From a virus: a stretch of 55,278 bases of DNA. Location: IMG/VR virus record IMGVR_UViG_3300010392_005395, positions 1 through 55,278 of that record, one strand, 5' to 3'. This document shows positions 14,961-50,981 of the stretch, piece by piece. Made by a program: the position numbers and the translations under genes. Within the stretch, counting starts at the first letter, position 1, and each line of letters begins with the position of its first letter. Under the pieces are notes generated by a model. That model did no database searches. It had not been told where the DNA came from and worked only from the letters and a program-made list of their open reading frames with translations.

Positions 14961-15710
14961 TTATGAATAAGCTAAATCAGTTTGAACTTCGTAACTGTTA
15001 GATTTGCCAGACGGTGTATTTAACGTTCCGTTTAATTCTAAAGTTGCAAAATCTTCAGAAAGAAAGTCAACACCAGTTTGTGGGGTTAAAACAGCTTCCC
15101 AAACATCAACTAAAACATTACTTTGGTCGGCAAAGTTTTCACCGTCTAATTTCAAAGCGACTTTAATAGAAGAGTTGGTTCCGCCTGATATTTTGTTACC
15201 AGCGATGGTTGCGTAGTCGTAAGAGATATGTAATACATCATCTTCTGAAATAGATCCGCCTGATAATGGTTTAACAAAACCAAGATCAGCATTAACAATT
15301 TCGTAGTCTGTATTCTCAACATAAGTGGTAGTGTCAGTAACATCTTTAACGACAACACTAGTAACTTTACGATTTGCTAATTCAAAAGATTTGTCTAATT
15401 TAGCAGTCTGTGCTTCAGAAGTTACTGATCCGCCCGTTACAGATACAGAACTAACATCACCTAAAAATAATAGCGCTAAGTTATCTTTATCAAGATCGTC
15501 TAAAGCAATAGCTACTTCAGGAGGCTGCTTGATAGCAACTGAATCAAGAACTTGACCATAAGTCCCTTTGATTTTTGATTTACGCTCTTTGATTTCAGCG
15601 TTTTCTTTGATTTCAAATTTAGTAGCGTTTCCGAATGGAAGCCAGTTTTGGCTAACACCTCCAACTACACGGTTAAAGTATAATTTACCAGATCCTAAAA
15701 ATCCGCTCAT
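14961..15710 (-). CDS. major tail (tube) protein
   Basis: 249 residues, just upstream of the tail chaperone. The opening (MSGFLGSGKLYFNRVVGG, then FGNATKFEIKENAEIKERKS) and the central PPEVAIALDDLDKDNLALLFLG fit tail tube proteins of lambda-like siphophages. A later segment (TTTYVENTDYEIVNADLGFV) resembles a small inserted beta domain common in this family. Hundreds of copies would form the tail tube. Its SD GGAG (minus strand 15721-15718, 7 nt before ATG) is embedded in a strong stem (15718-15768), so translation may be controlled. Confidence 0.8.
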   Translation of the reverse strand: MSGFLGSGKLYFNRVVGGVSQNWLPFGNATKFEIKENAEIKERKSKIKGTYGQVLDSVAIKQPPEVAIALDDLDKDNLALLFLGDVSSVSVTGGSVTSEAQTAKLDKSFELANRKVTSVVVKDVTDTTTYVENTDYEIVNADLGFVKPLSGGSISEDDVLHISYDYATIAGNKISGGTNSSIKVALKLDGENFADQSNVLVDVWEAVLTPQTGVDFLSEDFATLELNGTLNTPSGKSNSYEVQTDLAYS

Positions 15711-15717
15711 AATAATT

Positions 15718-15768
15718 CTCCAATTAAAACAGTTAATTAATTAACTAGCTTCTTGCTTTAAATTGGAG
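15718..15768 (-). promoter_or_regulatory. SD-sequestering RNA hairpin before the tail tube gene
   Basis: On the plus strand CTCCAATTAAAA (15718-15729) and TTTAAATTGGAG (15757-15768) are inverted repeats pairing at 11 of 12 positions. In the minus-strand mRNA the 3' arm contains the GGAG SD of the tail tube gene, so the stem would hide it. The enclosed loop holds the perfect 16-bp palindrome AGTTAATTAATTAACT (15731-15746). No T-tract follows the stem, so it is not a simple terminator. Confidence 0.65.
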
Positions 15769-15803
15769 TGCGAATCTTTGCACCCATCATCGATGACTAA
15801 GTA

Positions 15804-15959
15804 CTAATTTTTAGGATCAGAGTCCTTTAGCAACTTAATTTTTACATCTTTGTCAGCATCAACACTGACAAGAACTTTATTTGTTTTATTTTTTACGATA
15901 GTAATTTTACTATCACCGATCATGAAAGAATGACCGACTTTTAATTCTGTGAAAAACAT
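15804..15959 (-). CDS. CsrA-like small protein
   Basis: 51 residues: MFFTELKVGHSFMIGDSKIT, then IVKNKTNKVLVSVDADKDVK, ending in a charged tail. The pattern VGxxxMIGDxxxT...NxVxVxVDAxKDV matches the CsrA/RsmA fold. The usual N-terminal LTRR is replaced by FTELK and the HREE segment is absent, so classical GGA RNA-binding residues are only partly kept. Its ATG overlaps the TAA of the upstream gene (TAATG), indicating coupled translation. Downstream lies a hairpin holding the tail tube SD. It may bind RNA, or it may be a structural protein that only resembles CsrA. Confidence 0.6.
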   Translation of the reverse strand: MFFTELKVGHSFMIGDSKITIVKNKTNKVLVSVDADKDVKIKLLKDSDPKN

Positions 15960-16141
15960 TAGACAATATCCCTAACTTTCATGAAGTTAATATCGTCGTC
16001 ACTGGCTTTTAATTCATCCAAAACAGTACCTGCTGGAAATAATTTACCTGCGTGAGTATGTTCTTTTTTAAGTTTTAAAACTTCAACGACAGCTTCTATA
16101 GTGTCATCTATTTCAAGTGTTTTAGATTTTCTATTTCTCAT
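15959..16141 (-). CDS. small conserved phage protein, DUF7210-like
   Basis: 60 residues with the pattern VLKLKKEHTHAGKLFPAGTV, then DDINFMKVRDIV. Small proteins with a xHTHAGxxYxxGxxI motif are frequent among head-tail connector and tail genes of siphophages; the function is unknown. Its stop overlaps the start of the CsrA-like gene, and it starts 8 nt after the tail terminator gene. The SD-like AGAGG precedes the start codon. Confidence 0.5.
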   Translation of the reverse strand: MRNRKSKTLEIDDTIEAVVEVLKLKKEHTHAGKLFPAGTVLDELKASDDDINFMKVRDIV

Positions 16142-17106: not shown

Positions 17107-17408
17107 AATTTTGACCGTAAAATGATTATTGTTTTACCAACATCGCCAGGCTGTTTTGATTCATAAGAATAAGTCGTGTTGTTGAATTTAACTTTAATAT
17201 TCTTTTTGAAAAGTGATGAAAGTTCATCATTAACTTCTACGGTCGGATATTTGATATCAATCTCGCCGCCTAGTTCATCGCTCATAAATTCGAAATCAAA
17301 AACACCCCGAATTGGTGTTACATTTCCGCTTGTGTCGATTACCTCGATATCATCACCAAGTACATCTAAAACATCATCATCAGGAAAATCTAATGAAAAA
17401 CTAGCCAT
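17103..17408 (-). CDS. head-tail attachment protein (FII-like)
   Basis: 101 residues: MASFSLDFPDDDVLDVLGDD, then GVFDFEFMSDELGG, and a C-terminal beta segment GDVGKTIIILRSKL. An acidic N-terminal helix followed by a small beta-barrel half fits head-tail attachment proteins of the lambda FII type. Its position just before the Z-like gene supports this. It overlaps the endolysin gene by 8 nt at its 5' end and the Z-like gene by 4 nt at its 3' end. Confidence 0.6.
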   Translation of the reverse strand: MASFSLDFPDDDVLDVLGDDIEVIDTSGNVTPIRGVFDFEFMSDELGGEIDIKYPTVEVNDELSSLFKKNIKVKFNNTTYSYESKQPGDVGKTIIILRSKL

Positions 17409-17805
17409 TAAAATATTCCTCAGGATTAAAATATTCTTTGTTGCGCTTTATTTCATAATGCACATGATTTGGAATGCCTTTATAACGTTTATCAAGATTT
17501 TGAGCTGAACCAATAACCTGATTTTCTTCCACAACATCACCAACAAAAACAGATGGATTTACATAAAAAACTCTATGTTTAAAACCCGCATTATCAGTTA
17601 TTTGGATATATCTATAACTCAAATCATTAGAGTAAGGAAAACCGACTTTTGTTACGGTTCCAGACACTGGTGATAAAACCAATGCATATTTATTAATTAA
17701 ATAATCAATACCATTATGTGTGCGACTACCACGAGAAGCACCGAAATAGCCACATCCCCAATTATCACACTCACGTTTTTTTAAATTACAAATTGTATTA
17801 ATCAT
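17401..17805 (-). CDS. M23-family peptidoglycan endopeptidase (endolysin)
   Basis: 134 residues. M23 zinc-peptidase motifs are visible: H30xxxD34 in RTHNGIDYL and H114xH116 in NHVHYEI. The fold elements SPVSGTVTKVG and GDVVEENQVIG are typical of LytM/M23 domains. There is no signal peptide, so release through a holin is expected. It would cleave peptide cross-links of the cell wall at lysis or serve as a virion-associated lysin. It follows a coiled-coil membrane protein that may be the holin, and overlaps both neighbours by 8 nt. Confidence 0.85.
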   Translation of the reverse strand: MINTICNLKKRECDNWGCGYFGASRGSRTHNGIDYLINKYALVLSPVSGTVTKVGFPYSNDLSYRYIQITDNAGFKHRVFYVNPSVFVGDVVEENQVIGSAQNLDKRYKGIPNHVHYEIKRNKEYFNPEEYFNG

Positions 17806-49635: not shown

Positions 49636-49926
49636 ATGTCAACAAAATACGTTACAATTAAAAAGTTTTCTGAGGAATCGGGTTACACTGAAAATGCTAT
49701 CAGAAAAAAAATCAACAAAGGAATTTGGGTTGAGGGTAACGTATGGATTAAAGCGCCTGACGGTCGCCAATTAATTAATAAAGAGGGTTATGAAGAATGG
49801 GTCGAGAATTACCAAATTTTGAGGGGGTCAAACCAGCTTCTAAAACCAGTATCGAAATCGATTTCAGGTATAACGGAACTCGTTGCAGAGAAAAAGTCAA
49901 ACTCAAGCCCACTGCCACTAACTTAA
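49636..49926 (+). CDS. excisionase-like DNA-binding protein
   Basis: 96 residues. The first 55 (VTIKKFSEESGYTENAIRKK, then VWIKAPDGRQLINKEGYEEW) match excisionase/AlpA-type winged HTH proteins. The last 40 residues overlap the integrase frame and are probably of low importance. ATG 49636 is in a TATAATG context with no SD, so the start may be leaderless or incorrect. It would direct excision together with the integrase. Confidence 0.7.
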   Translation: MSTKYVTIKKFSEESGYTENAIRKKINKGIWVEGNVWIKAPDGRQLINKEGYEEWVENYQILRGSNQLLKPVSKSISGITELVAEKKSNSSPLPLT

Positions 49927-50981
49927 AACGTGCTCATCAGCATCGGTGCGCTATATTAGCAGCAATTGAATCTGGCACGTTTGATTACAAATCTACATTT
50001 CCAGACTCAAAAAACGCAATAAAATTTGCAAAAAAACTTGGTGATATACAAACAGTAGAACAATATTTATCAAGTTGGCTCAGTAATAAAAAACAAGAGG
50101 TATCATCTTCAACATATGATGGGTATCGGAAAATTATTAACAATAAACTAATACCAGAATTTGGTGATTTTAATTTATCCGATTTAAAACGTGTTCATGT
50201 AAAACAATGGGCAAGAAAATTAACTGTTTCAAACAAATACATATCAAACATATTGTCTCCACTTCGCACAGCATTATCAGAGGCAGTTGAAGACGAAATA
50301 ATTGAATACAATATCCTTGCTGAGTGGACGTATTCAAGAAAAGAAGAAGTTAAAGAAGATGATGATGTTGATCCTTTCACTGTTATTGAAATGCAACTTA
50401 TATTAGGAGAAATGCAAGGGCAGGTTCGTAATGTTTTTCAGTTTTCATTTTGGACAGGGTTAAGACCATCTGAAACAGTGGCATTGAGATGGGACGATAT
50501 AGATTTTGTAAATGGATCTGTCAGAGTATCTAAGGCATTAACAGAAGCTGCACAGAAAGTAGAAACAACAAAAACTAAAGCTGGAAAAAGAGATGTTAAA
50601 TTATTACCAGCGGCATTAGATGCGCTAAAAAAACAAAAACAATATACGTTTTTACAAGATGAAGAAATTTTCCATAACCCAAATACAGATAAAGCATGGA
50701 CTGGTCATCAAGTGATTGGAAATCATTGGAAGAGGGCGATTAGAAAATCTGGAGTTAGATATAGAAGACAGTATCAAACTAGACATACCTACGCCAGTAT
50801 GATGCTTTCAGCAGGCGAACATCCAATGTGGGTTGCCAAACAAATGGGTCACAAAGACTGGACAATGATTGCTCGTGTTTATGGAAAATGGATTCCAGAC
50901 GCTAATCCAGACGCTGGTAATAGAGCAGTTGAAATATTTGGAACTGAGTTTAATGAAAGTAAATCGGTAATAAGAGGATAG
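49797..50981 (+). CDS. int: tyrosine integrase
   Basis: 394 residues. An N-terminal Arm DNA-binding region (IDFRYNGTRCREKVKLKPTA) is followed by the core-binding domain and a catalytic domain with R223 (WTGLRPSE), K261 (TKAGKRDV), R329 (QTRHTYASM), H352 (QMGHKDW) and Y362 (VYGKW). The usual His of HxxR is Tyr here. This Arm/DUF3596-type integrase often uses tRNA 3' ends, which suits the tRNA-Ser at the left. It overlaps the excisionase frame by 130 nt. Confidence 0.92.
   Translation: MGRELPNFEGVKPASKTSIEIDFRYNGTRCREKVKLKPTATNLKRAHQHRCAILAAIESGTFDYKSTFPDSKNAIKFAKKLGDIQTVEQYLSSWLSNKKQEVSSSTYDGYRKIINNKLIPEFGDFNLSDLKRVHVKQWARKLTVSNKYISNILSPLRTALSEAVEDEIIEYNILAEWTYSRKEEVKEDDDVDPFTVIEMQLILGEMQGQVRNVFQFSFWTGLRPSETVALRWDDIDFVNGSVRVSKALTEAAQKVETTKTKAGKRDVKLLPAALDALKKQKQYTFLQDEEIFHNPNTDKAWTGHQVIGNHWKRAIRKSGVRYRRQYQTRHTYASMMLSAGEHPMWVAKQMGHKDWTMIARVYGKWIPDANPDAGNRAVEIFGTEFNESKSVIRG

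Follow-up and report, generated by a model that had tools for sequence, protein, structure and literature searches.

The 93-nt leader of the tail tube gene in a viral record of 55,278 nucleotides (the window, to which all unprefixed coordinates refer) may be an RNA switch on tube translation, run by the CsrA-like protein encoded in the adjacent phage gene, a reading to which we give slightly less than an even chance. The structures described below are energy-model predictions, and several of the sequence patterns were defined in the course of the analysis. The relevant features are as follows.

14961-15710, minus strand: tail tube protein, 249 aa (NCBIfam NF052337, tail_tube_6XGR, 8e-70; PHROG 807, 4e-48).
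15697-15706, minus strand: GCGGAUUUUU, start of the tube coding sequence, predicted partner of 15779-15770 (MFE, several segments).
15711-15803, minus strand: leader, 93 nt, from the CsrA-like gene to the tube gene (from sequence).
15718-15729, minus strand: SD arm UUUUAAUUGGAG, with the SD GGAG at 15722-15719 (unpaired probability 0.007).
15731-15746, no strand assigned: perfect palindrome of 16 bp, AGTTAATTAATTAACT, within the SD-stem loop, a 6-bp inner hairpin on folding.
15757-15768, minus strand: anti-SD arm CUCCAAUUUAAA, complementary to 15718-15729 at 11 of 12 positions.
15766-15785, minus strand: candidate binding hairpin for the CsrA-like protein, GGGUGC-AAAGAUUC-GCACUC, 6 pairs (folding, loop comparison and shuffles).
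15770-15779, minus strand: AAAGAUUCGC, predicted 10-bp pairing with tube codons 2-5, which would enclose the SD stem in a domain (MFE, several segments).
15804-15959, minus strand: predicted CsrA-like RNA-binding protein, 51 aa, with Leu at the column of E. coli Arg44 (VKIKL) (Pfam, PHROG, NCBIfam, AF2 and Foldseek).
15959-16141, minus strand: DUF7210-like protein, 60 aa, overlapping the start of the CsrA-like gene (Pfam 4.6e-6, slightly under the cut-off).

The record combines lambda-like head genes with a siphovirus-type tail module on the minus strand, in the order head closure, neck, 146-aa protein, DUF7210-like, CsrA-like, 93-nt leader, tail tube, chaperone and tape measure. Because the genes lie on the minus strand, folding of the plus strand is uninformative. 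An integrase-like ORF at 49797-50981 suggests that the phage is temperate and makes the tRNA gene at the record edge (69-158, Rfam) a possible integration site; this tRNA was the sole match when the whole window was searched for Rfam riboregulators at gathering score. A gene for an M23-type peptidase lies within the head-tail connector module (17401-17805; Pfam 9e-12). The tube gene had been named as such in an earlier sequence-only reading of this DNA, and the NCBIfam match agrees with that identity.

The gene upstream of the leader had likewise been called CsrA-like, and three profile libraries concurred: the 51-aa protein matched Pfam CsrA (PF02599) at 2.8e-5 and 24.4 bits, short of the 27-bit cut-off, PHROG 8397 at 3e-5 and NCBIfam CsrA at 1.7e-5, with scores against PRK01712 and TIGR00202 of 24.8 and 17.2 (cut-offs 73 and 70.1, respectively). 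Significant E-values with sub-threshold scores mark it, at the sequence level, as a divergent CsrA relative. Its AF2 model (pLDDT 88.7) is predicted to have the CsrA fold: in a Foldseek search of the PDB, ranks 1-14 were all CsrA, RsmA or RsmE chains at probability 1.00, with TM values of 0.66-0.79 and rmsd of 0.8-1.6 A, mostly about 1 A; the best E-value for this short protein was 7e-3. Our profiles csr.hmm and csr2.hmm include the window protein, and their scores for it, being circular, were excluded from the evidence. Searches with this protein alone found no relatives, nor did searches with the 146-aa neighbour alone, an alignment of which found only L002 and L003; the best phage matches to the CsrA-like protein, though weak, were CsrA-like genes of Bcep22-like phages. 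The protein resembles CsrA, RsmA and RsmE in fold and in site logic (a GGA-like triplet in a loop), and differs from them in its length of 51 aa, in scoring under the curated cut-offs and in having Leu at the column of beta-5 Arg44, a residue essential to RNA binding by E. coli CsrA (PMC7652899).

At the start of the tube gene, CTCCAATTTAAA (15768-15757) and TTTTAATTGGAG (15729-15718) pair at 11 of 12 positions on the minus strand, so that the GGAG, spaced 7 nt from the tube ATG at 15710, lies within a stem. Both this stem and the palindrome in its loop, which is perfect and occurs only once in the window even allowing 2 mismatches, had been described in the sequence-only reading and were confirmed. 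The 59-nt stem element folds at -13.7 kcal/mol (z -3.3), equalled by 0 of 200 shuffles, and the unpaired probability of the tube SD is the lowest among the window genes having an SD; the cost of opening the SD-to-AUG region, 5.6 kcal/mol, is mid-range among window genes. The tube SD is also the third lowest in unpaired probability of 67 homologous tube SDs, though its GC content is second-lowest. Two other tube SDs (L096 and L053) are paired deeper than that of the window, with no CsrA-like gene nearby.

Taken alone, the SD stem is weak evidence and a modest finding. It might be a functionless chance fold of AT-rich sequence: 11/12 inverted repeats (loop of up to 60) occur 50 times in the window versus 23-35 times in Markov sequences, and with such repeats this frequent we estimate that about one SD among some 50 genes would be stemmed in this way by chance. 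The stem also proved not to be conserved where we looked for it, being missing in the nearest relatives, L002 and L003, whose tube proteins are 66-67% identical. Against a chance fold stand the z-score and shuffles of the element, together with the rarity in shuffles of the anti-SD-capturing hairpin described next, and we consider this explanation decidedly improbable.

That hairpin (15785-15766), overlooked by the sequence-only reading, could make the stem switchable. As in CsrA leaders whose SD structure is exclusive with the binding site or bridged to it, the hairpin and the SD stem share a segment, CUC at 15768-15766, and are mutually exclusive. The hairpin is precluded as well by the pairing of 15779-15770 with 15706-15697, a helix that includes tube codons 2-5, where conservation of the protein start may dictate the codons used. 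When the hairpin was forced, the unpaired probability of the SD rose from 0.001-0.025 to 0.43-0.62 over four segment choices, and the opening cost fell in the four segments from 8.5 to 2.6, 8.4 to 2.7, 5.9 to 3.2 and 3.8 to 1.9 kcal/mol. After the preceding 38 nt were shuffled, an anti-SD-capturing hairpin arose in 0.65% of trials, and in 0.04% (0.0004) its loop also contained ANGA. The hairpin is several kcal/mol costlier than the ground state, and merely holding its bases unpaired, as a proxy for binding, made RBS opening no easier in the window; the hairpin itself must form. A GGA in the hairpin loop, as in RUACARGGAUGU or in the CsrB repeat CAGGA(U/A/C)G, is absent from the window loop AAAGAUUC; this loop instead fits the AGA variant of phage proteins that lack Arg44, in the extended form CAAAGAUU as against CAAGAUG.

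We propose that, in the ground state, the CUCC of 15768-15757 would pair with the SD and AAAGAUUCGC with tube codons 2-5, shutting the ribosome site. In the switched state, 15785-15766 would form the hairpin, with its loop serving as a CsrA-type site for a protein without Arg44, and because the 3' arm of the hairpin takes the anti-SD CUC, the SD would be released. A dimer of the CsrA-like protein would hold the hairpin state, such that tube synthesis would go up once the protein has built up. Loop binding by the protein, the activating direction of the effect and its timing are inferences here. Since the hairpin and the SD stem are mutually exclusive, we favour activation by SD release, as in E. 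coli ymdA, which CsrA activates by opening an SD-sequestering hairpin (PMC7652899), and the protein probably exerts control via the hairpin as an activator. The likeness extends to E. coli moaA (CsrA) and P. aeruginosa phz2 (RsmA), where a CsrA-family protein also opens an SD-hiding structure (PMC7652899); the window regulator differs from those of these three in being phage-encoded, in adjoining its proposed target and in lacking Arg44, and it would act on a virion gene.

A CsrA-like gene was present in just two of about 100 tube loci, those of the window and L002, in the same place and preceded in both by the DUF7210-like gene. Of 68 distinct tube leaders, these two alone contain the loop pattern GC(A)ANGAY(N0-2)GC, with rates in shuffled leaders of 0.0066 and 0.001, a match that is partly post hoc because the pattern was widened for the extra A of the window. 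The L002 leader has GCAAGAUGC, which contains the capsid-class core CAAGAUG, and its tube SD is not hidden (unpaired 0.34). What the window and L002 have in common in their sequences is the upstream hairpin loop and not the SD stem, and as the single CsrA-bearing relative leaves its SD unhidden, the comparison gives no evidence that the entire switch is conserved. Genome searches by the CsrA alignment returned mostly apparent host CsrA copies, and those by the tube returned one known match and otherwise distant ones, with no new CsrA-plus-tube locus from either. The CsrA-like protein of L002 (L002:4690-4947) has 85 aa, the first 35 of which look like an additional CsrA half; it may be a fused CsrA pair (AF2 pLDDT 61.6).

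The coincidence of loop and gene speaks against an alternative view, that the SD stem by itself serves as a thermosensor, a coupling device or a fixed damper while the CsrA-like protein targets host or other phage RNAs. In keeping with that view, the stem is strong for its GC content, its SD is among the best-paired, and the canonical CsrA genes of other phages are located away from structural genes. Coupling of the kind suggested in the sequence-only reading, in which translation of the upstream gene opens the stem, is unlikely because the upstream stop codon lies 35 nt before the anti-SD arm, a distance that exceeds the footprint of a terminating ribosome. Divergent CsrA-like genes beside capsid genes, described below, are moreover tied to a leader element, and action of the stem alone appears to us improbable.

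The main rival to activation is repression by bridging, in which the CsrA-like dimer would repress tube translation by contacting both the hairpin loop and the SD, or else would stabilise the SD stem. The majority of characterised CsrA leaders are repressed, and RsmA represses psl by stabilising an SD stem. The accessible SD of L002, in a leader that has the loop, also fits bridging better than release. In E. coli glgC, which CsrA represses, a hairpin site and the SD are used, and bridging functions at 10-63 nt (PMC7652899), a range that covers the distance of about 53 nt from the AGA of the window loop to the SD. The window resembles glgC in having an upstream hairpin-loop site and an SD within one leader; it differs in that hairpin and SD stem compete for the CUC, so that holding the hairpin should free the SD, which predicts release and not block. 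Furthermore, the SD would offer a GGA to a protein without Arg44, and hairpin formation opened the RBS in nearly all capsid leaders analyzed. We therefore regard repression as unlikely, although a serious contender, and retain activation by SD release as the preferred reading.

The stronger evidence concerns capsid leaders, beside which we place the window on the grounds of analogy and the common loop rather than of leader homology. In Bcep22/PBC5-like phages, a CsrA-like gene lies directly 5' of the major capsid gene, the two being separated by a leader of about 100 nt. We collected 80 capsid loci from viral contigs (L129-L208), five of which ended too soon; a CsrA-like gene was found within 200 nt upstream in 63 of the 75 with enough upstream sequence (61, plus two detected by a better profile) and farther upstream in four. 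In L168, L169, L170 and L173, the CsrA-like gene is 500-1000 nt from the capsid gene, and something has therefore been inserted between them, while the hairpin remains beside the capsid gene. The capsid leaders of CsrA-bearing phages have a median length of 105 nt, and 76 of 78 contain GC[AT]NGA at -70 to -28, mostly in a hairpin GCGC-ANGAN-GUGC or GCGC-AGGA-GUGC, which is the form of a CsrA site and whose outer pairs covary (for both loop classes, the score exceeded that of all 500 shuffles).

The hairpin bases of the capsid leaders also pair with sequence adjoining the AUG, in a second, competing helix that shuts the RBS. The 5' arms pair with their own 3' arm at -12.2 kcal/mol and with those of others at -9.4 kcal/mol, a difference reached in 0 of 10,000 permutations, and folding predicts a closed ground state. 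Of 53 leaders, 51 showed a lower cost of RBS opening when the hairpin was forced, and none a higher one (the mean fell from 12.3 to 6.7); as a control, blocking the hairpin bases made opening easier by 4.2 kcal/mol on average, compared with 0.8 for other segments. Among the capsid loci searched with Rfam, and in L002, no family matched. Across L129-L208 and L108-L115, we thus observed an unrecognised covarying element adjoining the CsrA-like gene, in which a CsrA-type hairpin GCGCANGANGUGC is set against an RBS-shutting helix. The Bcep22-like CsrA genes (BcepIL02 gp49, JC1 gp47 and CSP3 orf23) resemble the window gene in that a divergent CsrA adjoins the most abundant virion gene, with a structured leader of about 100 nt; they differ in that this is a capsid and not a tube gene, in that the virion proteins are unrelated, and in that the leader has promoter-like boxes of its own.

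Many of the capsid-linked phage CsrA-like proteins lack Arg44. Among distinct cases of these proteins, Arg44 was accompanied by a GGA loop in 19 of 23 and its absence by an AGA, UGA or CGA loop in 17 of 18 (Fisher 7e-7, kinship not corrected), and in a tree-based test there were 3-4 independent switches, nearly all in the same direction, which are too few for significance. The pairing of residue 44 with loop specificity is therefore suggestive. Because the window protein lacks Arg44, a non-GGA loop was predicted for its leader, as was indeed found. By the same token, canonical contact of the protein with the SD GGA is doubtful: it has Leu in place of Arg44, and proteins of the class without Arg44 go mostly with AGA or UGA loops. 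The translational switch of the sequence-only reading thus survives as an adjacent CsrA-like protein set on an abundant structural gene, as the fold, the capsid parallel and the loop in both tube leaders suggest, while direct recognition of the SD in the canonical manner is not supported.

More generally, and tentatively, phages of unrelated kinds could each encode, next to the most abundant virion gene, a dedicated regulator of CsrA origin, co-evolved with a bistable leader hairpin, in which loss of Arg44 shifts the loop from GGA to AGA or UGA and binding turns on capsid or tube translation; we think it somewhat more probable that this broader proposal fails than that it holds. If true, it would account for the way in which these phages control how much of their main virion protein is made, or when, and would illustrate a route by which the RNA specificity of a global regulator can shift. 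For years csrA genes have appeared in phage gene lists, to our knowledge with no known role, and the leader of the next gene now provides a testable target, having a predicted loop and competing helix, together with a protein residue from which the loop type is predicted. Published phage genomes report the CsrA-like gene and assign it no role (PMC7366521, PMC9144972, PMC10269572); in Bcep22-like phages it has been termed a moron gene, with no function assigned (PMC9144972). JC1 gp47 was found in virions through one peptide only (PMC9144972); if truly in the virion, it may be delivered to the cell together with the DNA. In L123 (2489-2677), the CsrA-like gene is followed after 18 nt by a gene for a 521-aa protein in place of the capsid gene.

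The promoter search in the window leader gave TTAACT-TATTAT (15736-15709, minus strand), which sits at the ATG, with matches no better than those in shuffles. In the capsid leaders (L129-L208), promoter-like boxes TTGC ... GATAATC occur at nearly fixed spacing from the hairpin, with a -10-like box 23-30 nt 5' of the hairpin loop in 33 of 56 leaders versus 4 expected, which suggests that they are the promoter of the capsid gene, with the transcript starting just 5' of the hairpin.
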